In this document: positions 5,048-31,271 of the stretch, piece by piece
Layout: every line of letters starts with the position of its first letter
Position numbering within the stretch: the first letter of the stretch is position 1
Source of the DNA: a virus
DNA length: 31,778 bases
Reading direction: 5' to 3' (one strand)
Virus record (IMG/VR): IMGVR_UViG_3300031787_000538
Coordinates: 1 to 31,778 of that record
Translations under genes and position numbers: made by a program
The notes under the pieces: generated by a model
What the model was told of the DNA's origin: nothing
The model's input: only the letters and a program-made list of their open reading frames with translations
Database searches by the model: none

Positions 5048-5055
5048 ATATCTCC

Positions 5056-5505: not shown

Positions 5506-5506
5506 T
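5234..5506 (-). CDS. Doubtful Pro/Gly-rich ORF (90 aa) inside the structured gap
   Basis: An ORF beginning MPLGRDYRPAVGSVEV starts as TGATG on the stop of the replication gene, the same coupling used elsewhere here. Against it, composition is skewed to P, G and R, no domain is recognisable, and the DNA is full of dyads. I list it only because the start overlap is suggestive. A non-coding explanation is equally possible. Confidence 0.25.
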   Translation of the reverse strand: MPLGRDYRPAVGSVEVSGYPCLPKVAQSLLEPAMRFRTKAYVPMHLDTGGRGGQGDSVWPGRGTHAPPHPRRMSGGYPLKFSPYFHGTGF

Positions 5507-8483: not shown

Positions 8484-8696
8484 ATGAACCAGAACGCATG
8501 GATTCTTGAGGAGTTGCAACGTGGAGCTCATGTTACGCCTATCGCTGCGTTGGCCGGGTGCCAATGCTTTCGTCTGGCAGCGAGGATTGCGGAGCTGCGA
8601 GAGGTTGGCCACAACATCCACACCACAATGATTTACAGCAACGGCAAGCGTTACGCGAGCTATCGACTAATCAAAGCAAAAGGAAAAAGAAAATGA
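8484..8696 (+). CDS. Helix-turn-helix/winged-helix small protein (70 aa)
   Basis: The product has the pattern of a common phage winged-helix protein: an N-terminal helix (WILEELQRG), VTPIAALAGCQCFRLAARIAEL as the helix-turn-helix, then EVGHNIHTTMI and a YASYRL strand as the wing. It probably binds DNA. It precedes the exonuclease gene, whose ATG overlaps its TGA, so the two are coupled. Target and effect are unknown; candidates are control of the recombination operon or support of the exonuclease. Confidence 0.75.
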   Translation: MNQNAWILEELQRGAHVTPIAALAGCQCFRLAARIAELREVGHNIHTTMIYSNGKRYASYRLIKAKGKRK

Positions 8697-9658
8697 AAGC
8701 TTATGGAAAAGTAACACCGGACGATCAGGCCAGCGCATCAATGCTGCCTGCCATTCTGGGCATCTCTGACTACTCAACACCCAACGACAGCTTGCAGACC
8801 TGCATACGGGCCATCGATGGCCTGGAGAGAGAAGACATCACCAACGAATCGATGACCTGGGGCAACGATTTTGAGAGTCGCATTCTGATTCGCGCAGCTG
8901 AGAGGCTGGGGCTCGATAACCTGGAGCTCGATCACTCGGAGCCCTATTGCCACAAGCTGCTCAAGCTTGCGTGTTCGCTCGATGGCACAGCTGATGGTCG
9001 CGGCCTGGTGATCGAGAGCAATCCAGACCTGGGCATCTACGTCATGGGCCAGCCCAGCATTAAGTTGGATGGCGTGGGAATCATGGAAGCCAAGTTGACC
9101 GCAGCTGACGTAGAAGACGCTCCACCGCTTTATCGCGGCCCGGTGCAGCTGCAGGCGCAGATGGATTGCTTTGGTGCCAGCTGGGGGGCTGTGTGTACGT
9201 TGTATAAGGGAACCAAGATGCGGATATTCCTGTTCGCCAGGCATGAGCCCACGTTGGCCATGATCTCGCGTGCCGTCATTGAGTTTGAGGCCAAGCTCCA
9301 GAAGTACCGAGAGACCAAGGTTATCGATTGGTACCCGCCCAAAGATTCTGCTGATGCTAATCGGATGTTTCCGGTGGGCATCGAGGACGATCAGGTGGTC
9401 TACCTGGGCGAGGAAGAAGACTACTGGGCGCACAGCATTGTTGAGGCCAAGAAGAAAATCGAGGCAGCTGAAAAAGACATTGACGATGCCGAGAAAAAGC
9501 TCAAAGAAATTTTGGGCAAGAACACGCATGGCCAAACTAGCAAGCATGAGATCTACTGGCCCATGCGCCACTATGAGGCCCAGCCATCTCGGATCACGCC
9601 AGCCAAAGAGGCCCGTGTGGTGCGTCAGTCCACACTAAAAATCAAGGTGCGGAAATGA
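8693..9658 (+). CDS. YqaJ/lambda-exonuclease-type recombination nuclease (321 aa)
   Basis: This looks like a viral 5'-3' exonuclease of the YqaJ/lambda Exo group, which resects DNA ends for the annealing protein encoded downstream. Motifs include SMLPAILGIS near residue 16, WGNDFE with E61, CSLDGTADG with D98, IMEAKL with E132 and K134 as the catalytic E-x-K, and VQLQAQMDCFG with Q152 and Q156, where the family has its Q-x-x-x-Q helix. The C-terminal third is a long charged helix (KKKIEAAEKDIDDAEKKLKE), probably coiled coil. The start at 8693 forms ATGA with the preceding stop; an upstream extension would overlap that gene. Confidence 0.85.
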   Translation: MKAYGKVTPDDQASASMLPAILGISDYSTPNDSLQTCIRAIDGLEREDITNESMTWGNDFESRILIRAAERLGLDNLELDHSEPYCHKLLKLACSLDGTADGRGLVIESNPDLGIYVMGQPSIKLDGVGIMEAKLTAADVEDAPPLYRGPVQLQAQMDCFGASWGAVCTLYKGTKMRIFLFARHEPTLAMISRAVIEFEAKLQKYRETKVIDWYPPKDSADANRMFPVGIEDDQVVYLGEEEDYWAHSIVEAKKKIEAAEKDIDDAEKKLKEILGKNTHGQTSKHEIYWPMRHYEAQPSRITPAKEARVVRQSTLKIKVRK

Positions 9659-10065
9659 CAGACCGTGAACTGATGCAGTTGGCGATGGAAACAATTCAAG
9701 GTTGTAGACCATCAAGCAAAAGTTATAAACAAATGCGTGAAACAGTAGAAGCCCTGCGTGACCGACTAGCACAGCCTGAACCTGTACGCGCCATCGACAT
9801 ATCGCAAGAACGTGTCGATGAAACGGCAAAACGTGAACACGAGCCATACGGTTATCTTTGGTTTACTCATCAAATGGAAAGACGATTTACCCATTACAGA
9901 CCAAAAGAAGAACAAAGAATTGGAGAAGTAACACCAATCTACACCGCACCACCAAAGCGTGAATGGGTTGGATTGGACAAAAAAGACTTGTCGGAAATTG
10001 ACCCTACAAGTTGGAAGTTGGTTTGTGATATAGAAGCCAAACTAAAGGAGAAGAACAATGGGTGA
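9655..10065 (+). CDS. Hypothetical protein, charged (136 aa)
   Basis: The protein starts MTDRELMQLAMETIQGCRPS and contains ETVEALRDRLAQPEP followed by EPYGYLWFT and VTPIYTAPPKREWVGL. Similar stretches occur in many phage hypotheticals of proteobacteria that I recall, without known function. It is coupled to the exonuclease by ATGA and overlaps the next gene by 8 bases. Its codons look AT-richer than the exonuclease and RecT genes around it, hinting at an inserted accessory gene. No catalytic motif is visible. Confidence 0.75.
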   Translation: MTDRELMQLAMETIQGCRPSSKSYKQMRETVEALRDRLAQPEPVRAIDISQERVDETAKREHEPYGYLWFTHQMERRFTHYRPKEEQRIGEVTPIYTAPPKREWVGLDKKDLSEIDPTSWKLVCDIEAKLKEKNNG

Positions 10066-10267
10066 TACAAAACTAATGAACGCACGCCTGCAAGCAGCAC
10101 TCAAGCTCCAGGCATTGTGTTTCGATGCTGCCAACAGAACACCGGGCAGCTTTATGAACAGAGACCGGGCAATGGATGTGGTGGACGCGCTCGTAACTGT
10201 GATGTTGACAACTATAGATACCTACGCAATCGAGGAGAAACAAAATGCAACTAGCAACAACAAGTAA
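10058..10267 (+). CDS. Hypothetical protein (69 aa)
   Basis: A short, mostly helical product (LQAALKLQALCFDAAN, then VVDALVTVMLTTIDTYAIEE) without recognisable motifs. It overlaps the preceding gene by 8 bases and the RecT gene by 23. AAAGGAGAAG precedes its ATG. It lies between the exonuclease and RecT genes, so a small partner in recombination is conceivable but unsupported. Confidence 0.65.
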   Translation: MGDTKLMNARLQAALKLQALCFDAANRTPGSFMNRDRAMDVVDALVTVMLTTIDTYAIEEKQNATSNNK

Positions 10268-11210
10268 CCAGGGCTTTGCGCCCGTGACGTTAGATGAGGC
10301 CATGAGATTTTCGGATATGTTGGCCAAGTCTCAAATGGTTCCCAAGGCATACCAGGGCAAGCCAGAGGATGTCCTGGTAGCCGTTCAATGGGGCCGCGAG
10401 CTGGGCCTGGCACCGCTCCAGGCACTCCAGAACATTGCCTGCATTAACGGCAAGCCATCCGTTTACGGTGACGCAGCTATGGCCCTGGTACAGGCCAGCC
10501 CGGTCTGCGAGAACATCGAGGAATACTTTGAGGGAGAGGGGAGCCCCAACCCGGTGGCAGTCTGCGTTGCTCACCGCAGGGGCCGCACGCCGGTCACGGT
10601 CAAGTTCTCAGTCGAGGATGCCAAGAGAGCCGGGCTCTGGGGCAAGACCGGCCCCTGGCAGGCGTACCCCAAGCGGATGATGCAGATGCGAGCCCGAGGC
10701 TTTGCCCTGCGAGATGCCTTCCCAGACGTTTTAAAGGGCCTTATAACCGTTGAAGAGGCTCAGGATTATCCGAGTTCCGGGGAGAAAGACATAACCCCGC
10801 CACGGCCCTCTAATCCTCTTGATGCTCTGGCTCCTCCCGCCACCAGTACACCAACCGAGGAGTTACAAACACCACCCGAATTGTTGGATCAGCCACCGGA
10901 AGAGGTGGTGGAGGTGGTGGAGCAGTCCGAGGCCACCGAGACCGCCTGGGATCTTCAGATACCTGGTGGTGAGCCGAGGCCCTGCGAGAACGCCGGTAGC
11001 TGGGTTGCGGCGTACCTTGAGCTCGTTGGTAAAGTCGCAAAAGCTGGTAAGGCATCAGCTCAAGCCAGGCTCGATGGGCTAGGCAAGCTGCGGAACTCCA
11101 ACGCCGAGCTGCTCAAGAAGCTGTCAGTCGAGCAGCGCATGGAGCTCACCGCAGCTCTGGCCAAGTTCGTGACACCTCTCAAGGAAATGGCCGCAGCTGA
11201 GAAGAGCTAA
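10245..11210 (+). CDS. recT: RecT-family single-strand annealing protein (321 aa)
   Basis: The N-terminal half has the RecT pattern. FSDMLAKSQMVPKAYQGKPE is followed by VLVAVQWGRELGLAPLQALQ, NIACINGKPSVYGDAAMALV, then VKFSVEDAKRAGLWGK and PWQAYPKRMMQMRARGFALR. These proteins anneal complementary single strands after end resection and work with the exonuclease encoded upstream. After about residue 180 a Pro/Glu-rich linker leads to a helical C-terminal part (about 245-321) that looks like an appended interaction region. GAGGAG precedes the start. The gene ends on the stop codon of the convergent endolysin gene. Confidence 0.88.
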   Translation: MQLATTSNQGFAPVTLDEAMRFSDMLAKSQMVPKAYQGKPEDVLVAVQWGRELGLAPLQALQNIACINGKPSVYGDAAMALVQASPVCENIEEYFEGEGSPNPVAVCVAHRRGRTPVTVKFSVEDAKRAGLWGKTGPWQAYPKRMMQMRARGFALRDAFPDVLKGLITVEEAQDYPSSGEKDITPPRPSNPLDALAPPATSTPTEELQTPPELLDQPPEEVVEVVEQSEATETAWDLQIPGGEPRPCENAGSWVAAYLELVGKVAKAGKASAQARLDGLGKLRNSNAELLKKLSVEQRMELTAALAKFVTPLKEMAAAEKS

Positions 11211-17473: not shown

Positions 17474-19546
17474 CTAGACTACAGTCCAAGCAGAGCCGCT
17501 TGCAACAGTCACCGTAATACCTGAGTTAACTGTTACAGGGCCAGCAGATAAACCATTAAAACCAGTATCAACGGTATAGTTCGCCGCAATAGTATTTGCA
17601 TTGACAGTAATACCGTTACTAGAAACCATCGCCGTAGATTGCAGCTCACCTGTACTGGGCTTGTACAGCAACTTGGCATTACCTGTATTTAGGCTACTAG
17701 CCGTACCGCTGGTACTGGTTACAAATGTTGGGTATAGGTTAGTTGTGGTGCTTGTGTCGTTTGAGATGGTAATACTTGTGCCGCTGCTTGGCGTTACAAA
17801 CGACAGGGTTCCAGAACCGTTAGTCTTTAATACTTGATCTGCCGTTCCATCAGTTGTCGGCAGGGTGAACGTATTAACAAACGATGTTAGGTTGCTATCG
17901 TATGCCTGGACATCTGTGCCTATAGTCAGGCCAAGGGAGGTCTTTAGCGTAGCCCCTGATTCAACAACAAAGTTAGTACCGTTGCCGATAATCACGCCAT
18001 TGTCTGTTGGGGTCAGGCCAGCTACGTCAGCTAGTTGAGCATCGTAGGCTTGTACGCTAGAGCCAATGTTAGATGCGGTGAGCACGTTGCTACCAGAGTT
18101 CTGCAAAGTACCGGTAAAGTTTGCGGTTGTGTCGGCGTACTTAGCAAAGCTAGATGCTGTGAATGTGCTGTCTTTGATTAGCTTTCCGGTTGTGCCATCA
18201 AACGCAGCCAGGCGATCATTGACCGCAGATGCTGGGCCAACCACATCACCGGTTCCAGAGCCTGCCGCACCCTTCTCAGCAAGCACATCCCAGTATGTTG
18301 TATTGGTGGGCAGGTTGCCAGTAGATGCCAGCTTACAAATGTAGCTTGATCCGTTGTAGCTGACAGCGTCATCGACTACATAGGATGTACCGCCAGCGTA
18401 GGCACCCAGCCAGTTGACACCAACCGGGCCTGTTGCCCCTGTTGCCCCTGTTGCACCGGTTGCGCCTGTGGCTCCAGTAGCTCCAGTTGGAATGCCGAGG
18501 GTTAGTACATAAGTACCAGAGTTGTAAGACGCTGTTGCGCTAGATCCAGCTGAGAGCGTGGTAGCTGTGGCCGTGAGATTGTTGGCCAGGTTGATCGATG
18601 CATTGCTGGCATTGGTTGCCGTAGTGGCAGATGATGCAGCCGAGGTTGCGCTGTTGGCTGCGTTAGTCGCAGAAGTGCTAGCGGACGATGCGCTATTGGA
18701 TGCGTTGGTTGCTGCCGTGCTAGCAGTAGAGGCAGAGCTTGATGCATTGCTTGCGCTGGTGCTGGCAGATGATGCGCTGCTGGCCGCATTGGTCGCAGAG
18801 GTTGATGCGTTAGATGCCGAGGTGCTGGCGTTAGAGGCTGACGTTGAGGCGGCAGATGCGCTGGCAGCAGCTGCTGTAGCTGAAGCCCCGGCAGATGCGT
18901 TATCTACAATCAGATCCCACTTGGCAGAATCGGTGTTAGTAGAGATAGGCTGCGATCCGCTAGACGTATGCGAGGTATTGGCGTAGTAGATGTTGCCGTT
19001 GCTGGTGTCTTTGACAATGTCGCGTTTATTGTAGGAAGTTGTAGCTGCCCAGTTGCCACGGTTATCGCCAATTGTTTCGCCGGTCGTTGGGTTCCCGTTA
19101 ACATCAAAAGCAAGAACTTTATTAGCCCGTACAGTAGACCGTGGCAGGGTCATGTTGATTGAGGTTGGATCAGTCTGCGGAGCCTTCAGGGATCGGTCTG
19201 CGGCCTCGGCATTCTGCTGGGCAAAGATGGTCAAGCTGTCCAGCTCATCATTAATCGTATTGGCAAACAGGTCACCGCCCGTCACAAAGTCTGAGGTGCG
19301 CTGGATCGCCCGGTCACCAACGATGGCAATCTGCGTTGCCCCGGTAGGCGTTGCCGTCAGGGTCACAAAGCCGGTGCCGTTTGAGTTGATCGTAACCGTG
19401 TAGTCCGTGGTCAACGTCAGCAGGGTATCGTCCTTGTACACAGAGATATCTGTGTTGGCCAGGATCTCAAAGGTAAAGGAGTACGGCCCGGTGCCAGAGG
19501 CAGCGAGCACTACTCGGCGGGTGACGTTGCTAATAGGGACTGCCAT
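17474..19546 (-). CDS. Long tail fibre: T7-type connector, Ala/Ser repeats, collagen-like stretch (690 aa)
   Basis: Residues 1 to about 150 (MAVPISNVTRRVVLAASGTG, FTFEILANTDISVYKDD, QRTSDFVTGGDLFANTIND) resemble the T7 gp17 N-terminal domain that attaches fibres to the tail. Residues 165-215 look like a carbohydrate-binding-module-type segment (W, Y, G-D/D-V, Y-Y, W). Residues 216-318 are almost all A, S, T and N in an ASNASTSA pattern. Residues about 353-373 are GAT triplets of collagen type. A second binding-module-like segment with Y, W and S-Y-I-C-K follows at about 374-425, then a beta-rich distal part to the C-terminus. It likely forms a long flexible trimeric fibre. Confidence 0.88.
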   Translation of the reverse strand: MAVPISNVTRRVVLAASGTGPYSFTFEILANTDISVYKDDTLLTLTTDYTVTINSNGTGFVTLTATPTGATQIAIVGDRAIQRTSDFVTGGDLFANTINDELDSLTIFAQQNAEAADRSLKAPQTDPTSINMTLPRSTVRANKVLAFDVNGNPTTGETIGDNRGNWAATTSYNKRDIVKDTSNGNIYYANTSHTSSGSQPISTNTDSAKWDLIVDNASAGASATAAAASASAASTSASNASTSASNASTSATNAASSASSASTSASNASSSASTASTAATNASNSASSASTSATNAANSATSAASSATTATNASNASINLANNLTATATTLSAGSSATASYNSGTYVLTLGIPTGATGATGATGATGATGATGPVGVNWLGAYAGGTSYVVDDAVSYNGSSYICKLASTGNLPTNTTYWDVLAEKGAAGSGTGDVVGPASAVNDRLAAFDGTTGKLIKDSTFTASSFAKYADTTANFTGTLQNSGSNVLTASNIGSSVQAYDAQLADVAGLTPTDNGVIIGNGTNFVVESGATLKTSLGLTIGTDVQAYDSNLTSFVNTFTLPTTDGTADQVLKTNGSGTLSFVTPSSGTSITISNDTSTTTNLYPTFVTSTSGTASSLNTGNAKLLYKPSTGELQSTAMVSSNGITVNANTIAANYTVDTGFNGLSAGPVTVNSGITVTVASGSAWTVV
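18420..18490 (-). repeat. Collagen-like coding repeat (Gly-Ala-Thr triplets)
   Basis: Tandem nine-base units encode about six consecutive Gly-Ala-Thr triplets within the long fibre. Such tracts vary in copy number by slippage and lengthen or shorten the fibre shaft. Confidence 0.8.
18530..18900 (-). repeat. Ala/Ser/Asn-rich degenerate coding repeat
   Basis: Codons for A, S, T and N recur in a five-to-eight-residue periodicity for about 100 residues of the long fibre. Its antisense strand reads as an open Ala/Val/Leu-rich frame only because of this bias. Confidence 0.75.
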
Positions 19547-19578: not shown

Positions 19579-22500
19579 TTATTTGCCCTCAATGCGAATA
19601 AATTCTTTATTACGGCGAACCAGTTTTGCAAGGTCTGGGAACTCAATCTTCTCGTCCAGAAACCCGGCCTCGTCCAAATTTGCTGCCTCGCCTTGGCCAG
19701 CATCTGGACTTGGGTCAAATCCAATCATCCGCAGCTTTGCGATCCGTCTGTAGTTGCTGGTCAACCGATCAACAAACTTTTGCATCTCGCCCTTGGTAAA
19801 GGATTCGCCTGCGCTTATAGCGTCTTCCCTGGCTTGCTTTAGCTCAAACGGTATTGCCTGCTCCAGGTTTCTTTCTTGCCCGTCAGACCCGGTTATTTTC
19901 ACCACCTGGCCATAGAGCTCTTTATATCGATTGAATTGTTCAGCCGACAGCTTTACGCCGTCCCATGTATCGCGTGGCCGAGATATCCCGTAGTCAATTG
20001 ATGCAAGTGCCTCGTCTGCCAGGCTGCGCTTACCAACAGTTACGCTGGTTACTGGACTGTAGTTTGCCCAATAATCGAGGCCGCGATTTTCTACTTTACG
20101 AACCCGGCCAAGACTGTCGAGCTCTGGCTTCAAAGATTGAGACAAGTAAGGAATTCTGCTGTGAACAAAAGCTCTTTGTTCCGCATAAAATCTCATGCCC
20201 AATGGTACGTCTGCCTCTGATGGTCTAGTAGATCTAATGGTTGGATCGGTAAGCCGTTCCATTTTTGCCATTAAGCTAGAGTTAAGAAACCCTACACCAG
20301 GTGTACCCGTAAACAAATAGTTTGCATATTGTTTGGCAAGCCTATCGAAAACCTCAACTACCTTTCGGCCACCGTCTTCTTGCCTGCTTTTAAGAATGCT
20401 AACCACATCTCCAATGCCTTGCATCGCAGGCAGGTTAGTCATGTATTCGGCAGACGCTCCAGAGCCAGCAAGAACCAAATTCATAATCATTGATTCATCT
20501 GGTTTACCCCTGTGGAACTTAAGCGCATCACCAATATCAGCTCCGACATTAAGCGGCATTGAGATTGGGTCAAATCTTGCATAGCTGATAAATATATATC
20601 CCTCAAGCGGCCCCTCACCTGTAGTTATTTTTGTTAGCTGTGAAAGCCTGCTTAAGTTTGCAAAGCTGATTTCATCTTTTTTATAAATCAATGATCGCCG
20701 CTGGTAGCCAAGCTTTTCTAGGGCAGCAAGGTCTTCTGGTTGGCTAGGGCCAGAACCAGTAACCCTGTTGTTCATTGAGAGATACGCAAACGTAGACGCA
20801 GCCAAACCACCAGCTGACAGCCTGGCCATTGCCAGGTCTCGATATCTACCGCCCTTATCGTAATCGTCCCAGAACCGTGGGCTCAAAAGATTGAAACCGG
20901 GTAGTCTGGCTGATGATTCAATGAATAAATTGGAAATTGTTTTTGCAAAAGGAACAAACACTTTAAGGGCTGGAACTTGAAACATATCGTTAAGCTTCCA
21001 GTAAAACTCTCCAAGCTTTGTAGAGCGATCAAACTCTGTGGCCAACTGCGATTGCTTGCGGAAGTTTTCAACGCTAGCAGCCATAGTTGCTGGACGCTCA
21101 TCCATCAACGCAGCCACTAGTCTCTGCGTTTCTTTTAAGGCATCAGCATCAGTCATACCAGATGCAATTAGCTTGTCGTATTCTGTATTTGCAAAACGCC
21201 ACGCATCTTCATGCAGCTGCATTCTTGCAGATATTCCACCGATAAACTCGTCAGCTCCGCTGATTGCCCTAAATACTGATCCATGAAAAAACCCAAGGTA
21301 ATCTAAACCCTTACCAAGCCAGGTGTTGGTTAGATCAGGGGTTCTGTAAATCTCTTTTCCAAAATCAGACGCGCCGCCCAAGATTGGGGAGATAGGTAAA
21401 GTTAATAGATTGCCAAGACGGATGGGAACATCTGAAAAAGCTTCTGCTGACAATGGGCTTATTTTTACATCACCCTTTACCGTTGCTCTTTCGCCGGTTC
21501 TGACAACGTGCTTTAGTAAATCCCAACCATCTAGAATTCCATTTGCCAGCCCAGATGTCCTAGCAAGAACATCGCCCATAAAGAATCTGTCTTCACCTGC
21601 GTTAGGAATTATTGCTTGGCGAACTTTCCCGTACCCAACAGCAAGCGTCCTTTCAATTGGAGAAGCTGGCCCAAACAAAACACCGCCTGCAAAGTTGTAA
21701 GCGTGACTATCTGGATTAGTTAAAAGATTTCCTTGAAAAGTAAATATAAATGCATCGCTTAATTTTTTACCAAAGCCAACCTCAAGCAATTTGTTTTTGC
21801 CAGCTCTCGTTGGGCTAAGAAGATAAGCTTCTGCCAATCGAGAAAGCGATTCGTCTCCACCAACCTCGTCAAGAATTGCGCGTATATCAGTTGGCTTAAA
21901 CCCTGGCCCTTTGTCTTGAACCCTCTTAAAGACGTTCATTGTTCTGGCAATATCAACTGAGATGCCCTTTAGGTTTTTAGCAATATTGTCGTGGTAAGCC
22001 ATTTGCTGGCGCAGCTGCAATTTGCCGGTGTCATCTAATTGGCCAGCAGCCATCTTGGCAAACAGCTCATCTAAACGTGCCGCGCTATCGTCATGCAGCT
22101 TTAAAACCCCGGCAGCTTGCTGGGCTAGCTGTGACCCACCAACCGTGGATTCCATTGGGAGACCCTGAAGAATTCTCTGGGCCTGGGCCTCTGGAACCCC
22201 GGCGTTGATAGCCCTCATGTAAATTGAGCGGATAGACATCTCTGGCTCATCTTTGAGCACAGCCTCCGCAGCCGAGCGCACCGTGGCCTGCATTGTTTCA
22301 TTGTCAAACGGTAGGGTGCTAATCGGCGTTTCAGTAACACCGGCCTCTGCTTGAGCCTTGGTGGGGCTGGGAGCACCAGGCTCGCCACCGGCCTGAATTA
22401 TTCTGTCCCGCTCTGCCGCCTGCTGCATCATCCTTTCGCCTGAGACCGGAGCTGGTGCCTCTGCCTTTGGAGCTGCTGGCGCAGCCTGGGCAGCCTCAGT

Positions 22501-22830
22501 TGATGCAGGTGTAGCTGGTGTTATAGGCAACGGGTCTGGGGTTACCTTTGGGTCTACTTTAGATTTGACACCCTTTTTTACAATCGGAGCCAATACTTCT
22601 GGCGCAGCTGCTTCCGATATAAATTGCGCCCCAGCCTGTACTGGTTTCGTTATTAGCCCGGTTCCAAGCTCTACTAGCCTACCAAGACCAGCTACCTGCA
22701 CAGGCTCGCTGTTTTCTAGGTTTCGTTCACCCTCAGAGATTGGAGTAAAGCTTTCGTTGGTTGGGTCTTCGGCTGGCTGGTTAGTTGCCAGGAGCTCATC
22801 CAATCTCTGGGTGATGGGAGGAAGTGCCAT
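19579..22830 (-). CDS. Large ejection-type/polyvalent virion protein (1083 aa)
   Basis: The first 170 residues are Pro/Ala-rich and probably disordered (ITPATPASTEAAQAAPAAPK). The central part has a membrane-proximal look with FIFTFQGNLLTNPDSHAYNF, then FAGGVLFGPASPIERTLAVG, and long helices with charged and hydrophobic stretches (DYLGFFHGSVFRAISGADEF). Segments of this kind occur in the giant virion proteins of podoviruses (ejected or polyvalent), which cross the envelope with the DNA. I see no clear enzyme motif such as a lytic transglycosylase. It is the last gene of the ejection block and its ATG overlaps the stop of a 59-aa gene (TAATG). Confidence 0.7.
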   Translation of the reverse strand: MALPPITQRLDELLATNQPAEDPTNESFTPISEGERNLENSEPVQVAGLGRLVELGTGLITKPVQAGAQFISEAAAPEVLAPIVKKGVKSKVDPKVTPDPLPITPATPASTEAAQAAPAAPKAEAPAPVSGERMMQQAAERDRIIQAGGEPGAPSPTKAQAEAGVTETPISTLPFDNETMQATVRSAAEAVLKDEPEMSIRSIYMRAINAGVPEAQAQRILQGLPMESTVGGSQLAQQAAGVLKLHDDSAARLDELFAKMAAGQLDDTGKLQLRQQMAYHDNIAKNLKGISVDIARTMNVFKRVQDKGPGFKPTDIRAILDEVGGDESLSRLAEAYLLSPTRAGKNKLLEVGFGKKLSDAFIFTFQGNLLTNPDSHAYNFAGGVLFGPASPIERTLAVGYGKVRQAIIPNAGEDRFFMGDVLARTSGLANGILDGWDLLKHVVRTGERATVKGDVKISPLSAEAFSDVPIRLGNLLTLPISPILGGASDFGKEIYRTPDLTNTWLGKGLDYLGFFHGSVFRAISGADEFIGGISARMQLHEDAWRFANTEYDKLIASGMTDADALKETQRLVAALMDERPATMAASVENFRKQSQLATEFDRSTKLGEFYWKLNDMFQVPALKVFVPFAKTISNLFIESSARLPGFNLLSPRFWDDYDKGGRYRDLAMARLSAGGLAASTFAYLSMNNRVTGSGPSQPEDLAALEKLGYQRRSLIYKKDEISFANLSRLSQLTKITTGEGPLEGYIFISYARFDPISMPLNVGADIGDALKFHRGKPDESMIMNLVLAGSGASAEYMTNLPAMQGIGDVVSILKSRQEDGGRKVVEVFDRLAKQYANYLFTGTPGVGFLNSSLMAKMERLTDPTIRSTRPSEADVPLGMRFYAEQRAFVHSRIPYLSQSLKPELDSLGRVRKVENRGLDYWANYSPVTSVTVGKRSLADEALASIDYGISRPRDTWDGVKLSAEQFNRYKELYGQVVKITGSDGQERNLEQAIPFELKQAREDAISAGESFTKGEMQKFVDRLTSNYRRIAKLRMIGFDPSPDAGQGEAANLDEAGFLDEKIEFPDLAKLVRRNKEFIRIEGK

Positions 22831-23009
22831 TATCCAAGTCCTTTGTTCATTGCAGCCAGGTCAGCAACATTGATGGCCGGGCCTTGAAAATCTGGGTTCC
22901 CGCCAACCTCCCACCAATCATCAAAAGGAATGCCTTCCATTTGGTATTGATCTTCATTTGGAAACTGTTGCACAAAATCTTCTAGGGGTAGCGGTTTTCC
23001 ATTGATCAT
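22830..23009 (-). CDS. Short acidic protein between two ejection-protein genes (59 aa)
   Basis: The frame starts MINGKPLPLEDFVQQFPNED and contains IPFDDWWEVGGNPDFQG, ending NVADLAAMNKGLG. Its ATG overlaps the stop of the 727-aa gene (ATGA) and its TAA overlaps the next ATG (TAATG), the same coupling used across the operon. No family is known to me. The DDWW pair and small size would fit a small virion or assembly factor. Confidence 0.75.
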   Translation of the reverse strand: MINGKPLPLEDFVQQFPNEDQYQMEGIPFDDWWEVGGNPDFQGPAINVADLAAMNKGLG

Positions 23010-25189
23010 TTCATCTGCTCCTGAATTGATTGGCCAGTATTAATAAGGTTTTCTTGTGGTTGCCCAGAAGATATAGGAATCATCTTATCTTGTTTGGTCT
23101 GCTGTTTGGCAATCACTACTTCTGTATTGGTTGGTATTAACGGGCCGCGTAATGGTTTGCCACTTTTTTCGCTAACGCCTGGACTTGGGCCGCGCAAGAA
23201 TCTTTTGCCTGTTTCATCTTTTTGGAACTTAGGGTCATATTGAACAAAGAACCCATCTGATTTTATGGCGGCTTCAGCTTCTTTTCTAGTAATAGCTTTG
23301 TTCTTTAAGCCAATAATTACACCGTCAAAGCCTGGTGGTTGGGCATCCATTGGCCTAAAGTCATAACTATCGCCATCGATGACTTTGTATATCTTGCCTG
23401 TCTCTTCATCTCTAACGCTTTGTGGCAATGCTTTTTTATTGCTGAATGCCATCGCTACGTTTTGTCCATTATCAAGCCATTGGCGCATCTGAGGCCAATT
23501 AGCATATGGATTATCAACGTCTACTGTCAAACCATTTTGGCCAGCCTTTTGTAATAGACCAGTAGAACTATAGGTGTAGTGATGATTAGGAGCAATCGGT
23601 CGATATTTCATTTTTGTGTAATCGTAAAAGATTACATCTGGGTGTTGCTTAATTAATGTTTCGTGAATTTTTGGATTGACATCAGATAGCACGTTTAAAC
23701 GCACGGCTAACACGTTGCCATTTTTTGCTGCCTTTTCTTTTAAAGAAGTAATTTCGTTGCTAAGTTTTATTGCAAAAGCTTCTGGCTCATGCAGCATACC
23801 CATAGTCATTCTAAAGCCACGCAAGCGAGATGGCCCCATAGCATCAAGGTCGGCACCGCCACCAAATATGTAATAACCGTTGGCGGTCTTGCCAAGGCAC
23901 TCTTTGACGCATGATCTGTGATTTGGGCAAGTGTTGTACTTTCCAACCTTTAGGGCTGGAGCCAAAGCAAGGCCAGCATTTTCAATGCCTCGTCCATCTG
24001 GAAGTTTGATTGGCTCGCCGCCAGGAACTCCAGTTTCTGTTTTCTTAAGCTTGCCGTTTGATGTCAAAAGTTTATTGGTTTGACCTTTTACATTTACACC
24101 AAGATAAGGAGCCAAAGTTTGATTTGAGCTTAATGCTAATTCCTTTTTTTGCTCAACAGATAATCCTGGCAATCTGGCTAATGAGCCGTTGAACGATTGC
24201 GCCAATGTGCTATCGGTTGGCTCAACCCTCATTTTTTGATTTAGCATTTGCTCAAACGAAAGCTCTTGCGGATTTGTTGGTGTAACCAATTCTTTTTTAA
24301 GTGCTTTTTGAGAATTAACGTATTCTTTAACAAGAGCCGATTGTTCTTTTGTCAGCTTAGATCCAATATCTGTTTCAAGCTTTTTAATAATTGCAGCAGG
24401 TTTTAATCCTTGGTCTGTATATAAGCGAATGTTGTTGCTAACAGTTTTTGCGTTTTGCTCTTCAAGGCTTTGAGATATTCTGTCCTGATAGGCTTTTGTG
24501 TTTGCCCATGCTTCGGCCGCAGACCGCAGTTCTCCTTTTGGCATTATTGCCCCAACAGGTGCGGTCGTCATTACTTCCTGAGCCATACTTTTAACAGCCC
24601 CAACCCCAGACTTAATAGCCCTGGCGGCTAGAAACGGGTCAGCAAGTACCTCACCGGCCAACTCCCCGCCAGCCGCAGCTTTCTCTCGCATTGCCCTATC
24701 AGTAGTAACGCCAGGCGGTATTACTGGTGGCAACTTGACGCTACCAAGCGGTGCGCCAGGCAACAGCCCAATACCTTCTCTCTCAACGTCCTTTGATGTT
24801 TGTAGCAATGTTGGCGATTCAAAAGCACCGGCAGACCTTTTCACCCGCTCTACAAAACCGCCGCCCTGGTTATCGGTTATAAAGTTTTTGATAAACGTAC
24901 CGAGCTGCTCAACGTCCCCGCCAAAGCCAGCCACAGCCTTAACGCCACCACGGCTCATACCGGCCAGGCCATCGAGCACTACCTGACCCATCTGGGCCGG
25001 TGTCATGCTTTGGGCATCAGCTGGTAGCGTCATGCCGCCCTGGGCAAGAAACTCTTCAGCTGCGCCGGTAGCAGGGGCAACCTCTTCTGGGGGTGTAGCC
25101 TGTGGCGCAACACCAGTAATGTCAATTCTGAGCGGAGGATAAGCCCGATCAAGGGCGTAGTCTACATATCCGGTATCGTCATCATTCAT
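23006..25189 (-). CDS. Ejection-type protein with GP88-like cysteine domain (727 aa)
   Basis: The N-terminal 120 residues are Pro/Gly/Ala-rich, followed by a helical part to about residue 350. Residues about 360-660 form a distinct domain with C421-x5-C427-x3-C431 (NTCPNHRSCVKECLG), RLNVLSDVNPKIHETL, and HPDVIFYDYTKMKYRP. That order, including the F-Y-x-Y-T-K segment, matches what I know of the mycobacteriophage gene 88 family (GP88 domain), whose function is unknown but whose cysteines suggest metal or Fe-S binding. The start overlaps the previous stop (ATGA). Combination with a long virion-type N-terminus implies injection of the domain with the DNA, which is inference. Confidence 0.72.
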   Translation of the reverse strand: MNDDDTGYVDYALDRAYPPLRIDITGVAPQATPPEEVAPATGAAEEFLAQGGMTLPADAQSMTPAQMGQVVLDGLAGMSRGGVKAVAGFGGDVEQLGTFIKNFITDNQGGGFVERVKRSAGAFESPTLLQTSKDVEREGIGLLPGAPLGSVKLPPVIPPGVTTDRAMREKAAAGGELAGEVLADPFLAARAIKSGVGAVKSMAQEVMTTAPVGAIMPKGELRSAAEAWANTKAYQDRISQSLEEQNAKTVSNNIRLYTDQGLKPAAIIKKLETDIGSKLTKEQSALVKEYVNSQKALKKELVTPTNPQELSFEQMLNQKMRVEPTDSTLAQSFNGSLARLPGLSVEQKKELALSSNQTLAPYLGVNVKGQTNKLLTSNGKLKKTETGVPGGEPIKLPDGRGIENAGLALAPALKVGKYNTCPNHRSCVKECLGKTANGYYIFGGGADLDAMGPSRLRGFRMTMGMLHEPEAFAIKLSNEITSLKEKAAKNGNVLAVRLNVLSDVNPKIHETLIKQHPDVIFYDYTKMKYRPIAPNHHYTYSSTGLLQKAGQNGLTVDVDNPYANWPQMRQWLDNGQNVAMAFSNKKALPQSVRDEETGKIYKVIDGDSYDFRPMDAQPPGFDGVIIGLKNKAITRKEAEAAIKSDGFFVQYDPKFQKDETGKRFLRGPSPGVSEKSGKPLRGPLIPTNTEVVIAKQQTKQDKMIPISSGQPQENLINTGQSIQEQMK

Positions 25190-26841
25190 CTGATAGTGCT
25201 CAATTCTTTTCGTTGTTTATCAAGTCCGATCATTTTCTGTTCAATGTCATCAATTTGAGAATCGCTAAAGCCATCCCTACGCAACGCTGCTTTTACGTCT
25301 GAAGACAAACCAACAGCTTCCCCGTCTTTGCTATATTTCATTTCAATGTTATTAAAATCAATATTGCTTTTTTTGGTAGTTCCTTGCGGCCCATAGGAAG
25401 AGATCAAGCTTTCCGTAATATTGTCAATTTTCCTAGACTGAATACTTTCCCTGCGCTTAACAACAAGTTTATTTGCAATATCTCTTTTAGATGGTGCCGG
25501 GCCTTTTGAGCCGCCATCTTTCCACGCTTGCGTTTCCTGTTGAAATCCGTCTTCAACATTTGAAATAAATTTATAGTAATCCTGTTGCTGGCGTTGGCTA
25601 ATATTTTGCTGCCCAGGAACAAGCCTTGCTTGAGCCCTGGCAATTCCTTCAATGTCATTCTCAACTGCGCGATTACCGGAATACCAGTTGTCTTGCAATT
25701 CGGAAAGCCTGCGAATCCCAACTCCGAGTGACCGCCCTCGATTCTGAAAATCAGCCAGGCTAGTAATTAAACCTTTTTGAATTTCATCCTTAAGCATCAT
25801 TTCGCCCATTACGTTTCTTGGTTCTGCACCAGAAACCTTGTTTGGTAATTCAGCTACATATTCTGGGGATACGGCACCAGAGCGAATAGCAATGGCTCGC
25901 AGTTTTTCTAGGGTTGCTGGTTTTGGGGAACTAAAGTAATCAGCAATTAGTGCGCGAGCTTCTGTCTCATCTCCAGATTTTTTAAGCTCTGCTTCGGCTT
26001 TTAGAATATCTGTAGATTCAACAAATCGTTTTTTGATTGCTGTGCGGATAGCTGACTTTTGTTCCTCTGTGAAAGACATAACATCCCTGGTGTATTTGCC
26101 ATAATCCCCAGCAGCCATCTTTGCGTTAAGGATTGTCATGTTGCCCTGGGATAGCTCATCTTTTAAGTATTTAGAAATAACATTGATTTTTGCTGCTTCT
26201 ACAGATTTTAAAAACTGCGTCATTTTTTCATCAGATGAACCTGGATTCATTCTTGCGACATTAAACATCTTTGAAAAAATAGATTGCTCTTCTACATTTC
26301 TAGTTGTTCTTGCCTGCTCCCCCATTGCGGGGTCTTCATATGATGCTGTTGTTTCCCATAGCCGTTCAATTAGTTTTGTGTTTTGCTTGATTGCATCGTC
26401 TGTTATTACGTTTCTGGCGGCACTATAATTCTTGAGCATCATGTCCGTGCTCTTGGCCATCAACGCTTTTCCAGAAGATGTAATCGACTGAATTAAACCA
26501 GCAGCCTGGGTAACATCCCTACCAAACAATGGTTGTGCAAATGATTCTAGAGAGCGAATTTCACTTTGTAGCTCACGGACATCTGTGAGCTGGCCAGTAG
26601 AAACCAAGGTGTCTAAATCATTAACTTTCTTTGCGACTTCAAGCTCTAGCTCTGATCGCATTTGGGCGGCAATGATTTTGTCTTCTTTGTCTTTGCGTTC
26701 CTTAATTTCGCCAAACGCAAACTGCATAAGCTGGTCTAGTGACTTCCCAACAGCCTGTGACGTACTGGCCATCGGAAAGCTCATGCTAGGAACATCCGCT
26801 GAGATGACCCCTGATTCTTGGTATCTAGGTATGCGTGCCAT
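25186..26841 (-). CDS. Ejection/internal virion-like protein (551 aa)
   Basis: This highly helical, charged protein (KEDKIIAAQMRSELELEVAK, ILKAEAELKKSGDETEARAL) takes the position of T7 gp15, between the 197-aa gp14-like and the 727-aa protein. No catalytic or membrane segments are visible. T7 gp15 forms part of the DNA ejection channel, a role assigned here only by order and character. It is coupled to the preceding gene by TAATG. Confidence 0.65.
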   Translation of the reverse strand: MARIPRYQESGVISADVPSMSFPMASTSQAVGKSLDQLMQFAFGEIKERKDKEDKIIAAQMRSELELEVAKKVNDLDTLVSTGQLTDVRELQSEIRSLESFAQPLFGRDVTQAAGLIQSITSSGKALMAKSTDMMLKNYSAARNVITDDAIKQNTKLIERLWETTASYEDPAMGEQARTTRNVEEQSIFSKMFNVARMNPGSSDEKMTQFLKSVEAAKINVISKYLKDELSQGNMTILNAKMAAGDYGKYTRDVMSFTEEQKSAIRTAIKKRFVESTDILKAEAELKKSGDETEARALIADYFSSPKPATLEKLRAIAIRSGAVSPEYVAELPNKVSGAEPRNVMGEMMLKDEIQKGLITSLADFQNRGRSLGVGIRRLSELQDNWYSGNRAVENDIEGIARAQARLVPGQQNISQRQQQDYYKFISNVEDGFQQETQAWKDGGSKGPAPSKRDIANKLVVKRRESIQSRKIDNITESLISSYGPQGTTKKSNIDFNNIEMKYSKDGEAVGLSSDVKAALRRDGFSDSQIDDIEQKMIGLDKQRKELSTIR

Positions 26842-27434
26842 TATGTTGGTACAACCATTCTGGTTTCAACTGGTGCTGGAACAAGCCAGTTATAACTTGT
26901 TCGATCAAATCCACCGCCCTTGCCTGCGGTTGCACCGGCCATCAAAAGCTTGGTAGCCGCATCTAACTTGCCTGCTGTTTTTGCTTGTTGGGCCGCAGCT
27001 AGATTAGATGCCAAGGCAATGTCTCCAGCTCGTATTGCTGCGTCTGCGTCATCTAGATAAATCTTGAACTCTCGCCCGGCAGATGTTTCATTAGATGCCC
27101 GAACAATATCTGTTGACCCGCTAAACGAATCAACACCACCAGCAAATCCTTTTGCCGTTAGGGTGGCGTTAGTCTTCTTAAGCCGCTCTAGAACCTGGTT
27201 GGCTTTCTGCTGATACTGGATCGCCCGGCGGTCATACTGAGTTTGTTCTAGCCTTCCCTTGAGCTCTAGCTGCTTGCCCTGGATCTGGCCTTGCTGGTAT
27301 GAGCTGTAAGCAGACATAACAGATGCGGCCACAGCTGCGGCGGTAAACGGATCGTTCTGAACCCTGCTTGATCCAGGTGGGTTGTGTGGGTCACCAAGCG
27401 GTAGCCCGTGGACGTTGATATTAAATCTGCTCAT
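26841..27434 (-). CDS. gp14-like internal virion protein (197 aa)
   Basis: The sequence includes AAAVAASVMSAYSSYQQGQI, QYQQKANQVLERLKKTNATL, and DADAAIRAGDIALASNLAAA, the Gln/Ala-rich helical character of T7 gp14-type proteins that reach the outer membrane on ejection. It lies directly after the tail nozzle gene, the same order as other podoviruses of this plan. The start ATG follows the nozzle stop by one base. Confidence 0.75.
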   Translation of the reverse strand: MSRFNINVHGLPLGDPHNPPGSSRVQNDPFTAAAVAASVMSAYSSYQQGQIQGKQLELKGRLEQTQYDRRAIQYQQKANQVLERLKKTNATLTAKGFAGGVDSFSGSTDIVRASNETSAGREFKIYLDDADAAIRAGDIALASNLAAAQQAKTAGKLDAATKLLMAGATAGKGGGFDRTSYNWLVPAPVETRMVVPT

Positions 27435-27435
27435 G

Positions 27436-29436
27436 TCATGCCCCAGGGTATGTAGATATCTTGTACTCTAAACCTAGCAAAGTCATCTTTAGCGGAATAG
27501 TTTGCCTAATAGTGATTTTACCTTCTGTTGTATATCCGAGAATGCTGTCGATAGTTTTTGTGCCAGTAAAGATAGGTACGGGATCATCGAGTGTGTCTCC
27601 TGTGTCAAAGCTTCTAAAGGGTAATTCATTGTCATTGACAATTAAATGCTGGGTGTCTTTAACAATAGCGTTTACTTCAATGATTCGTTTCTGGTAGGCA
27701 AGCCTAGTACCAGCTGCAATCTTTATATCTGCTGGCATGGTTACCGCCTGGGTAGTAAAGTTAAGACCTACCTGGTATGAACTAGCAGCTGCTCGAGGGA
27801 ATGTCACCGTGCCGCCACCAGGTACTGTCTGAGCTGCCTGCACCGCGCCATCTAAAACAACTTGCACGGACTTGGCCACAAGGTGGGACATCGACACAGA
27901 CGCAGCTGCGCCACCAGACTTGGCGCAATCGAGCTGTAGGCTGTCATCGAACACCTCAACGTAATACTGAGTCGTACTATTTATCGTACGTTTCACCACC
28001 GTATAAATAGTGGTGAGATCTACGCCAACATCGATGTACTCGCCATCGGTTGTAAATTCAGACGGTGCAATTACGTTTTGTACCCGCAACATAGAAAAGG
28101 CAGCGATTGTCCCGCCCGTGCTGTTAACGATAAATAGCAGGTCATTTTCATCGGTAGCTACTGACCGGCGCAGAGCCATCCTTGTGGGAGACTTTAGTAG
28201 ATGGCCAGCCAGTAGCGATATCTTGCTTGTAACGTAGGTTAATTGCGTGTCTGTAAACGCAAACTCATTAAGTGATTTTCCCTGCCGCTGCAAGAATAGG
28301 GTGCCTGATTCCAGCTGCTGGACACGGACACCTTCTTTGGCGCCATTGCGGGTGACCGCCTTCATAAAGAAGTTGGTTGGCGTGATTGGCTCTAGACCCT
28401 CTTGTGGGCAATAGAACTCGCCACCAGTTGTAAAGATTTGCAGGTCGCGACCAGAGGTTACATCGACAATTGCGTTAAAGGTGTTGGTGTCTAGCGTAGC
28501 CTCCACCGCATCATCGTCTAATCCCTCGGTTGGCTCAAAGTCAAAAAACAATCCAACCTTGGAACCCCATACGGTTGATGGCCGCGACTTAGATCCAGCA
28601 AAGAAAAGCCTGCCCTCATGGAACGTAACCGAGCGTGGCCAACCTTTTCCAGATGACCACACAGCCTCGTAACCAGATTCGTATTCCCATGAACCGTTTG
28701 CAATGGCAGAGGTATTAAAGAACGGGAACTCAACTATTGCGTCAACTACTGTGGCACTTGTGTATTTGACTATCTTGGCCCGGCCCTGTGGGCTAGCGTT
28801 GACATATTGGCCAACCGAACCTGCGCTAAATGGCGTGCCTGTTGACGCTGTTAACGTGACCTTCCCGCTTACAGCAGACGGTGTCAATGTTCCAGATGGA
28901 TTAGATACAGATAACGTAAAAGCATACTTGGGAATACTGTCAAAAGAAAGCGTGCTGGCAGTCCAAGATGTATCAGAGGCCCCGCGCACAATCTTTACCG
29001 GGTTGATGTCCTGGTGGCAGACAATCAGGGTATCAGCCGATTGCGTCCAGGTTAGATTGGCGAGCCTGGCACCGGTAAGGCCAAATGAGCTGGTATCTAG
29101 GTAATCGTTTGCTCCACCATTGATTGCCAGCTGCTGCACGGAGTTTTTAAAAACATACATTCGACTATCGGTAAAGCACAGCATATAGCTGTCGGATGTA
29201 GAGAACTCAAACGGAACCAGGCGCACGCCGTTTCCAGCAGATGGCGTGCTTGAGTTTGGCAGAGCCATAATGTACTTAGAACCGGGCCTGCGCCTAATTC
29301 CACCCTGGGGCTGCACCACCACATTGGTGGCCTCCTCTAGGGCGTTAGCGTAAGCCTGTAGGTCAACCCTGGCCCTCAATAGGGGATCGAGTTCCCCGGT
29401 TGAGAAGTTGGTTTGGATTGACGTAAAACGTGCCAT
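27436..29436 (-). CDS. Tail nozzle/tubular protein B-like (666 aa)
   Basis: The N-terminus (ARFTSIQTNFSTGELDPLLR, then VVVQPQGGIRRRPGSKYIM) is typical of the large tail nozzle or stabilisation proteins of podoviruses, analogues of T7 gp12. The rest is beta-rich with FHEGRLFFAGSKSRPSTVWG, a common segment of this family. It forms the distal tail tube through which DNA passes. It starts as TGATG on the gp11-like gene and is followed by the ejection block. Confidence 0.88.
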   Translation of the reverse strand: MARFTSIQTNFSTGELDPLLRARVDLQAYANALEEATNVVVQPQGGIRRRPGSKYIMALPNSSTPSAGNGVRLVPFEFSTSDSYMLCFTDSRMYVFKNSVQQLAINGGANDYLDTSSFGLTGARLANLTWTQSADTLIVCHQDINPVKIVRGASDTSWTASTLSFDSIPKYAFTLSVSNPSGTLTPSAVSGKVTLTASTGTPFSAGSVGQYVNASPQGRAKIVKYTSATVVDAIVEFPFFNTSAIANGSWEYESGYEAVWSSGKGWPRSVTFHEGRLFFAGSKSRPSTVWGSKVGLFFDFEPTEGLDDDAVEATLDTNTFNAIVDVTSGRDLQIFTTGGEFYCPQEGLEPITPTNFFMKAVTRNGAKEGVRVQQLESGTLFLQRQGKSLNEFAFTDTQLTYVTSKISLLAGHLLKSPTRMALRRSVATDENDLLFIVNSTGGTIAAFSMLRVQNVIAPSEFTTDGEYIDVGVDLTTIYTVVKRTINSTTQYYVEVFDDSLQLDCAKSGGAAASVSMSHLVAKSVQVVLDGAVQAAQTVPGGGTVTFPRAAASSYQVGLNFTTQAVTMPADIKIAAGTRLAYQKRIIEVNAIVKDTQHLIVNDNELPFRSFDTGDTLDDPVPIFTGTKTIDSILGYTTEGKITIRQTIPLKMTLLGLEYKISTYPGA

Positions 29437-30056
29437 CAGTTCCTCACATCGATCAAGCTGTAATCTTCAATCACAGAAATTGGCTGGCCCTGGCCATCGA
29501 TGGTGGTGGCGGTACGCATATAACCACCCCGGCCATTTTCTGACGCAGCTCCAATGGCAATCTGCTGCCAGTATTGGGTTTTGTCGATCTGGTCTGTAAT
29601 TGGCAGAGACAGGTGCCAGGCCATCATGTACTTGAGCAGCTGCACAAAGTAAACCGGCATCTCGTACTCTTGGACGGCATATGGATAGTCGGCGTAGATG
29701 GTGGTCTCGTTGGTGAGCAGCTTGTCTTGGAATATTCGGTAGGCTTTAATCGGTCTGGCACCAATAGCGTTGGTAACAAATATCTGCCTGGGGGGCCCAA
29801 TCCGATCACCTGGCAGCTGATATTCGTACCTGTATTCTGTGGTTGGCGTGGTGATTAGTTGAGATAGCTGGATCTTTTTGTACAGAAAAGACCACGGATA
29901 ATTTAATAGCGTCTGATTCTTGATGTCCGGGTATAACCGGTCACATACGTTAGCTGCGTTAGTTCCCTCGTTAAACGATGAGATAGCTTTTGCACCCAAC
30001 ATCAAGAGAGCGTCTGAACAAATTGATAGTGCGGAATCACCTGCTGCCATTTGCAT
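29436..30056 (-). CDS. Tail tubular protein A-like adaptor (206 aa)
   Basis: The N-terminal part SALSICSDALLMLGAKAISS followed by NVCDRLYPDIKNQTLLNYPW is a recognisable signature of T7 gp11-like tail tube/gatekeeper proteins, which join portal and nozzle. Length is close to the family norm. GGAG precedes the start, and the start overlaps the preceding glycosyltransferase-like gene by 20 bases. Confidence 0.9.
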   Translation of the reverse strand: MQMAAGDSALSICSDALLMLGAKAISSFNEGTNAANVCDRLYPDIKNQTLLNYPWSFLYKKIQLSQLITTPTTEYRYEYQLPGDRIGPPRQIFVTNAIGARPIKAYRIFQDKLLTNETTIYADYPYAVQEYEMPVYFVQLLKYMMAWHLSLPITDQIDKTQYWQQIAIGAASENGRGGYMRTATTIDGQGQPISVIEDYSLIDVRN

Positions 30057-30696
30057 TACTCCATATATCTCTTACCCAGCCACTTGAACCAGAACCTTTT
30101 GGCTCGCCATGAAAACAAACTACTTTTGCCTCATCTGGTTTTTGCTTGCCAAGAAGATGAAATTTGTATGAGAAGATTCTATTGGGGAATATCTGTTGCC
30201 ACAAGCAGTCTGGCTTTTGATTCTTAGCAATAAATGCCTGATCTCCAAGATTCAGGCTCCCAGAGTACATAGTCATGTAAAACGATGGGTCTGACCTAAA
30301 TGTCAGGTAAATGTGCGAATAGTCACCGTTCCAGGCCATCATCCCACTTGCCGGGGTATCGCGCTTGCCCAGGTCTTTGAGCATCGTGAATTTATGTGGG
30401 TACTCGGCCAGCTCGGTCAGGTCACCACAGATAACAGTATCCAGGTCAAAGTAAAGCACCGGGCCATCAAATACCCAAGAGAAGAGCTCGATCTTAGACC
30501 ACCAACCTGGCCACCCGTGTTTGAGCGGTATCCGCTCGCAAGGTACATCTACATCCGAAAAACAGACAAACCTATGGTCTCCAAGATTCTTGGCAACCAT
30601 ATTCATCAATCTTTCCACATCGGCTGGGGTGTAGGGTTCTTTGCCAGCTGATTGGCTAAAGCGACCAGACTTGAGAACGCAGGCAACAGTTAACAT
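30037..30696 (-). CDS. Glycosyltransferase-like protein with DxD motif (219 aa)
   Basis: The sequence has the core of a GT-A fold: N-terminal TVACVLKSGRF strand, then PVLYFDLDTVICGDLTEL with D84-x-D86 as the metal/nucleotide-sugar motif, then GDQAFIAKN, and a C-terminal VVCFHGEPKG segment, an arrangement resembling GT8-like enzymes. It would move a sugar from a nucleotide donor to an unknown acceptor. GGAGCTCC precedes the start. It is embedded between capsid and tail-tube genes and overlaps both neighbours, so expression is with the virion proteins. Modification of a capsid protein or surface is a possible role, inferred. Confidence 0.75.
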   Translation of the reverse strand: MLTVACVLKSGRFSQSAGKEPYTPADVERLMNMVAKNLGDHRFVCFSDVDVPCERIPLKHGWPGWWSKIELFSWVFDGPVLYFDLDTVICGDLTELAEYPHKFTMLKDLGKRDTPASGMMAWNGDYSHIYLTFRSDPSFYMTMYSGSLNLGDQAFIAKNQKPDCLWQQIFPNRIFSYKFHLLGKQKPDEAKVVCFHGEPKGSGSSGWVRDIWSNANGSR

Positions 30697-31241
30697 GGAG
30701 CTCCTAGAACTTGGCGGGTATATCCGCTAAGAGAGGTTACACCATCCATGCGTCCATGTTCTTTGTGTCTATACAAAAACCTCTGCCAATGCTCAATATT
30801 ATTGGTGGGTGCAAATACCTTGTCTGGTTTGCTGTCCGGGTATTGGGCGTGGTAATCGGTGCTGTTAACACTTAGGGGGATGCCAGCCATAATTACCTCA
30901 TCGAAACCCATAGCTTTGGCCCAAATTGCGGCTACAACCCCGCTCGATCCTTTTATGCCAACCATGCTATTCCACCAGTAATCTACATCATTTCCTATGA
31001 TGTCTGCCCTGGCATGAACCTTTATTGGCCTACCGGCCTTGGTTTTGTATTCTTGAGCGTAGCTATTGTGCTGCGTCCAGATATGCTCAATCTCAGGGAC
31101 TATTGCAGCTGCGTTATTGACCCCAACGATGGTGGCACCTGGGCGCAGCTTGAGTGCGTTTTCTAGGTCTTCAAAGACACAAGGGGCCGCGCCACAGATA
31201 ATGGCACACCCCTTGTGTTGTACGTCATACGAATGCGGCAT
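30690..31241 (-). CDS. Rossmann-like, possible sugar-transfer protein (183 aa)
   Basis: The N-terminal sequence GCAIICGAAPCVFEDLENAL has a nucleotide-binding-loop character. It continues ATIVGVNNAAAIVPEIEHIW, and later VVAAIWAKAMGFDEVIMAGI with a Gly-rich context. This pattern resembles DUF115/MptE-like or sialyltransferase-like proteins found in phages, but the match is not exact. The start at 31241 is ATG; a GTG one codon earlier is also open. It overlaps the DxD glycosyltransferase gene, suggesting the two work in one pathway. Confidence 0.6.
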   Translation of the reverse strand: MPHSYDVQHKGCAIICGAAPCVFEDLENALKLRPGATIVGVNNAAAIVPEIEHIWTQHNSYAQEYKTKAGRPIKVHARADIIGNDVDYWWNSMVGIKGSSGVVAAIWAKAMGFDEVIMAGIPLSVNSTDYHAQYPDSKPDKVFAPTNNIEHWQRFLYRHKEHGRMDGVTSLSGYTRQVLGAPC

Positions 31242-31271
31242 CACAATCGGGAGCTTATGGCCCCCTCTTGA

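Follow-up and report, generated by a model that had tools for sequence, protein, structure and literature searches.

GP88 (PF17338, PHROG 1617) is a common phage protein family without an assigned role, and nothing on the function of GP88 or of DUF5131 was found in the literature searched. The preliminary description of the locus analysed here presented GP88 as a domain that normally stands alone. Most homologues outside the clade described below are indeed proteins of 223-290 aa, often encoded among small, mostly non-structural genes. They come from Pelagibacter, mycobacterial, rhizobial and giant phages, and scattered bacterial and archaeal contigs also carry GP88, nearly always by itself. 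A GP88 annotated in a Nitrosopumilus spindle-shaped virus (BFVD match) lies outside the tailed phages. Two further described systems bear on the locus, the T7-type core and ejection proteins (gp14, gp15, and gp16) and the polyvalent proteins. The effector domains of the latter type are interpreted in the literature as injected (PMC5512222), and GP88 is absent from the main text of the founding survey (Iyer 2017, PMC5512222).

The window, which is the whole 31,778-nucleotide stretch of IMG/VR record IMGVR_UViG_3300031787_000538, pairs a T7-like tail and ejection block with an early region of the lambda type. The genes of the block are all on the minus strand and are read from 30056 down to 17474 in the order gp11-like, gp12-like, gp14-like, 551-aa gene, GP88 fusion, 59-aa gene, gp16-like, and fibre. 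The features are as follows.

29436..30056, minus strand: gp11-like tail tubular protein (phrog_394, E=1.8e-28)
27436..29436, minus strand: gp12-like tail tubular or nozzle protein (phrog_376, E=1.5e-123)
26841..27434, minus strand: gp14-like internal virion protein (phrog_418, E=4e-7)
25186..26841, minus strand: 551-aa gene in the gp15 position, upstream of the fusion (position and synteny)
23006..25189, minus strand: GP88 fusion protein gene, 727 aa (ORF call; ATGA overlap with the upstream gene)
24545..25189, minus strand: N-terminal module, residues 1-215 (96-100% identity in several loci, a 64-67% version in others)
23216..24097, minus strand: GP88 domain as the long clade defines it, residues 365-658 (Pfam match 377-632)
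23897..23929, minus strand: Cys triad C421-x5-C427-x3-C431 (invariant in 82/82 homologues)
23681..23701, minus strand: RLNVLSD, residues 497-503 (invariant R, N, S, and D, where predicted beta strand 2 ends)
23612..23629, minus strand: FYDYTK, residues 521-526 (predicted beta strand 3; Y, Y, and K invariant)
22830..23009, minus strand: 59-aa partner gene (4-nt overlap of its start with the GP88 stop, ATGA-type; also overlaps the gp16-like start)
19579..22830, minus strand: gp16-like internal virion protein, 1083 aa (phrog_6651, E=4.5e-9)
17474..19546, minus strand: tail fibre with two CBM_5_12 matches (Pfam/PHROG matches)

The 727-aa product had been described without its strand, as a fusion inside an ejection block. 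In accordance, PHROG matches of the gp11, gp12, gp14, and gp16 types lie on both sides of it, placing the gene within a gp11-gp12-gp14-gp15-gp16 block. The 551-aa gene has no convincing family match of its own and is gp15-like by position only. The 1083-aa gp16-like protein has a homologue in another locus of our survey (L019, E=2.6e-44). Like a T7-type core gene, the fusion gene lies between the gp15-position and gp16-like genes, and its translation is coupled to that of the preceding 551-aa gene by the ATGA overlap. Unlike the T7-type set, the fusion is an extra component whose C-terminal domain is enzyme-like, and it has no sequence match to gp14-16. The CBM_5_12 matches of the fibre suggest chitin or glycan binding. 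Elsewhere in the window, a RecE/RecT-like pair is encoded on the plus strand (8558-11210), and a DNA methyltransferase and an O-like replication initiator on the minus strand (3287-6537). A glycosyltransferase-like gene (phrog_1962, E=6e-41) and a weak sialyltransferase-like match (phrog_4603) are located just upstream of the gp11-like gene (30037-31244, minus strand).

Residues 377-632 of the window protein match PF17338 with E=2.7e-16 and 60.6 bits, against a curated gathering cut-off of 24.4 bits, and the protein also matches PHROG 1617 (E=1.1e-29). This profile search confirms the GP88 membership proposed in the preliminary description. GP88 is the only recognised domain, and C421, C427, and C431 are the sole cysteines of the 727-aa protein. 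When 82 GP88 domains from IMG/VR are aligned, the invariant residues besides these three are R497, N499, S502, D503, Y522, Y524, K526, S541, G606, D610, and L628. The window protein carries the Cys triad, RxNxxSD, YDYTK, and GDxxD in order, at invariant or near-invariant columns. The earlier observation that C-x5-C-x3-C, RLNVLSDVNP (residues 497-506), and F-Y-x-Y-T-K follow one another as in GP88 is thus borne out, and the match is far beyond chance because the triad and the listed residues are invariant across the 82 sequences.

The domain is the same as that of stand-alone GP88, with all invariant residues kept and a score well above the cut-off. In contrast to stand-alone GP88, the proteins of the window's clade carry long N-terminal segments joined to the domain, are encoded in virion gene blocks, and have a dedicated downstream partner gene. 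Their cysteine spacing is CX5CX3C (63/63 fused rows counted), whereas most GP88 proteins have CX6CX3C. In addition, NHH (residues 535-537) and residues nearby are invariant within this clade.

At least 557 stretches in IMG/VR, whose loci are redundant in part and incomplete in part, match a profile of the closest GP88 relatives, and we surveyed 80 loci of this long clade. The complete proteins at these loci are all fusions, of 403-1851 aa; the L019 protein has 1027 aa, and those of L020 and L021 have about 2800 aa. Wherever the neighbours can be read, the gene lies in a virion gene block. Two genomic homes recur. The first is the T7-like ejection block (gp12/gp14/gp15/gp16-type), as in the window. 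The second has the order terminase, SU10-like portal (PF23899 / phrog_1216), GP88 fusion, further cargo, and major head protein, as labelled by phmmer with the proteins of L161, which are themselves anchored by Pfam and PHROG. In a quick, midpoint-rooted tree of 189 GP88 domains, a branch with support 99 sets 67 fused rows apart, and three more are placed elsewhere. The fusions form one diverse, well-supported clade. We found no long-clade member among the named phages of the collection or, with the patterns used, among the genome contigs, and plasmids gave no match to the L019 protein.

Some fusions carry domains of polyvalent proteins. ART-PolyVal and LPD38 are present in L020 and L021, a ParB C-terminal domain with a weak ART-PolyVal match in L171, and a PcfJ match with a weak ART-PolyVal match in L175. 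On a separate branch of the tree, gp272 of Tunturiibacter phage Tunturi_5 (L009) joins an inorganic pyrophosphatase (InPase) domain to GP88. At least two effector or polyvalent domains are found in L020, L021, L171, and Tunturi_5 gp272, and weaker ones in L175. The likeness to polyvalent proteins lies in the virion-block location, the modular payloads, and these ART-PolyVal, LPD38, ParB, or InPase domains of related fusions; the window protein itself differs in having a single recognised domain. At L009 4350-10229, Tunturi_5 gp272 is annotated as a minor head protein and is followed by gp273, a 1489-aa NUDIX/ART-PolyVal/GNAT polyvalent protein.

Seven further contig loci have the same gene or its N-terminal part, and the IMG/VR relatives hold the gene in the same slot. 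Comparison of the loci indicates that residues 1-215 act as one module and the remainder as another. In L104-L106, an N-terminal module 64-67% identical to that of the window is joined to a GP88 part close to that of L004. In L008 and L100, the N-terminal module of the window (98%) is followed by DUF7178 (PF23802, E=8.6e-8) in place of GP88. The slot is modular, with a swappable payload. In the DUF7178 version (L008 6001-7815 and L100), the segment SGPKVNSFMLNLQGN...NDAW resembles a helix-hairpin-helix, as judged only by eye.

The 59-aa gene that follows the fusion is below the 60-aa cut-off and hence missing from the ORF list. Its conserved motifs are DF-x-x-QF-(P/H) and WW, the second of which reads W(W/Y) across the loci. 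The partner usually begins within a few bases of the GP88 stop, with a length of 55-60 aa at T7-like loci and, for the most part, 47-100 aa at SU10-type loci. In L175 (11026-11694), it is fused to a polyvalent-type InPase domain (PF18823, E=3e-51). It is present in 83 of the 86 loci with an intact 3' side (78 by profile count and five with an earlier ORF start, namely L151, L153, L159, L180, and L185, of which L153 is counted as a near-twin of L151 and the other four were seen directly). The three exceptions, L019, L020, and L021, branch off deepest within the long clade. No partner is found at the 87 stand-alone GP88 loci, and none at the DUF7178 locus (L008/L100). Conversely, a search with the partner itself recovers GP88 in 12 of 13 new contigs, and the remaining contig begins just before the partner.

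We considered that the partner might be tied to the virion block and not to GP88 itself. A further 77 contigs, some of which may end before the slot, encode a close SU10-type portal; both genes are present in 4 of them and both are absent from the other 73. These 73 siblings, together with the loss of both genes from L008, led us to reject that relation. The partner is most likely a dedicated accessory of the GP88 payload: a loader, an inhibitor in the producing cell, or a substrate. Matches to the partner are found neither in Pfam nor in the PDB. The layout of a putative enzyme with an adjacent small protein resembles that of radical-SAM peptide maturases.

The predicted model of the window GP88 domain is barrel-like (pLDDT 80, pTM 0.82), and that of a stand-alone GP88 is confident (pLDDT 94.8, pTM 0.90). 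Foldseek against the PDB returns nothing under E 0.001 for either model. The top 1000 Foldseek chains were re-aligned with VIA-align, the only step that separates radical-SAM enzymes from other barrels; Z below 8 in these comparisons may reflect merely a common barrel arrangement. For the stand-alone model, the best 14 of 14 rows are radical-SAM enzymes with Z from 6.9 to 5.0, and the next barrel has 4.8. They include the PFL-activating enzyme (6.9), QueE (6.4), NifB (6.3), a viperin-like protein (6.1), spore photoproduct lyase (6.0), TYW1 (6.0), SkfB (5.8), SuiB (5.4), and BlsE (5.0). For the window-domain model, the top six of six rows are radical-SAM enzymes (viperin, viperin-like, BlsE, and NifB; Z 5.3-4.8), followed by 4.3.

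In both models, the triad is positioned directly after the first barrel strand (beta1), which is the place of the radical-SAM cluster loop. On these predictions, GP88 would share with enzymes such as the PFL-activating enzyme, QueE, viperin, and NifB a partial barrel and a three-cysteine loop after beta1, in both cases without a family-wide invariant fourth ligand. A metal site completed by a conserved fourth ligand, as suggested in the preliminary description, finds no support across the family: exactly three cysteines are invariant in the 82-sequence alignment, and no fourth Cys or His is. A family-wide four-ligand zinc site was dropped on the same grounds. Because no fourth Cys or His is invariant, an open-site [4Fe-4S] cluster would fit, as in radical-SAM enzymes.

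Unlike radical-SAM enzymes, GP88 has CX5CX3C or CX6CX3C in place of the canonical CX3CX2C spacing and lacks profile-level similarity to them. Some accepted radical-SAM members also deviate from this spacing. The Pfam search of the GP88 proteins gives no match to the radical-SAM family (PF04055), and hhalign of GP88 with a radical-SAM alignment is not significant (E=0.041, probability 1.3%), nor is it with AP_endonuc_2 as a control. When the GP88 profile is run as an HMM against PDB sequences, no credible match results. Judging from the models, GP88 probably works like a radical-SAM enzyme; we claim this likeness and not membership because Z is modest, the cysteine spacing is odd, and the profile link to PF04055 is lacking.

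Alternatively, the protein may be packaged and injected without being a radical-SAM enzyme. GP88 would then be a generic TIM-like barrel whose three cysteines form a metal or Fe-S site, and that site would serve structure, nucleic-acid binding, or another kind of catalysis. The absent profile link, Z values of only 5-7, and the unusual cysteine spacing all speak for such a barrel, and the NHH of the long clade could add ligands. On the other hand, radical-SAM enzymes fill all 14 top structural rows and no other barrel exceeds 4.8, the triad occupies the radical-SAM loop position, and a family-wide invariant fourth Cys or His is missing. We consider this alternative rather unlikely, although worth keeping in mind.

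The reading that we favour, with modest confidence, is that the fusion is a virion cargo protein of which the N-terminal part loads, the GP88 domain is an injected payload, probably of a divergent radical-SAM type, and the 59-aa protein is an accessory. The GP88 domain with its invariant triad, the fusion, and the virion-block location in two unrelated phage architectures are observed here, as are the exchange of the payload and the tight linkage of a small gene downstream; from these we infer packaging, ejection, and catalysis. The variable N-terminal part (residues 1-215 and the linker) would load the fusion into the internal core with the gp14/15/16-type proteins, or into the portal region. 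The fusion would leave the virion with the DNA, and the C-terminal GP88 payload would enter the cell. Its three cysteines would hold a [4Fe-4S] cluster, one open iron of which could bind S-adenosylmethionine. Host factors would build or reduce the cluster once in the cytoplasm; we expect the protein to refold, and the host to assemble the cluster, after entry, since neither a folded barrel nor an Fe-S cluster is likely to come through a short tail unharmed. A 5'-deoxyadenosyl radical might then modify a nucleotide, nucleic acid, or protein of the host (or of the phage), at or ahead of the onset of phage transcription. The partner is translationally coupled to the fusion. The company of ART, InPase, NUDIX, and ParB-type domains points to nucleotides, nucleic acids, or proteins of the host as possible targets.

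The broader proposal, that GP88 is a new radical-SAM branch packaged and injected by widespread phages as an early-acting modifying enzyme with a dedicated partner, is tentative and in our estimate somewhat short of probable. A point against the favoured reading is that the cluster and fold would have to withstand the passage through a short tail or form anew afterwards. In the literature searched, we found no injected radical-SAM enzyme; a lead that a paper on the N4 virion RNA polymerase mentions radical SAM proved to be a remark on an HExxH motif. For a family without an assigned role, the virion-block clade, predicted fold, proposed chemistry, and partner together provide a concrete hypothesis, and, if it is true, an injected radical enzyme acts at the very start of infection.

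Entry of the protein into the cell with the DNA had been raised as a possibility. Delivery with the virion is likely, as the fusion clade sits in virion blocks, sometimes with polyvalent effector domains, whereas packaging itself is our reading of this setting. Late genes may have non-virion products as well, and glycosyltransferase-like genes lie near the block; both count against a packaged enzyme. The fusion could be expressed late to serve assembly or maturation, or to form part of the core structure, with GP88 acting in the producing cell. All members lie in late structural operons, non-virion genes such as glycosyltransferases adjoin the window block, and a coupled partner could serve assembly. 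However, the block neighbours are internal or ejected proteins, the same slot accepts the unrelated payload DUF7178, and GP88 is joined elsewhere to polyvalent-type effector domains that are read as injected (PMC5512222). We regard a role in assembly as improbable. A recent, functionless, illegitimate fusion that by chance put an early gene into a late one in a single phage would be in keeping with GP88 usually standing alone, but this highly implausible account is refuted by the one diverse, well-supported clade in at least 557 contig stretches, by a dN well below dS (several-fold for both the fusion and the partner gene in pairs where dS is estimable), and by the triad kept in 64 of 64 long-clade rows.

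A local resemblance to DUF5131 (phage Gp37-Gp68, PF07505) is only a lead. DUF5131 has a three-cysteine motif, C-x6-C-x2-C, and a weakly similar SD...TKR segment, aligned by hhalign with E=0.0013 in one comparison (probability 18.6%). In contrast to GP88, the DUF5131 protein is longer, and the two have no significant profile match.

In the fusions of the SU10-portal group (L136-L188), a recurrent short motif of helical character, similar to 'xxxALxLAR', occurs in 17 of 37 N-termini, compared with 3 of 122 other nearby proteins and 2 of 422 other ORFs; it was derived by eye from the very proteins in which it is counted. This motif may be a packaging signal.
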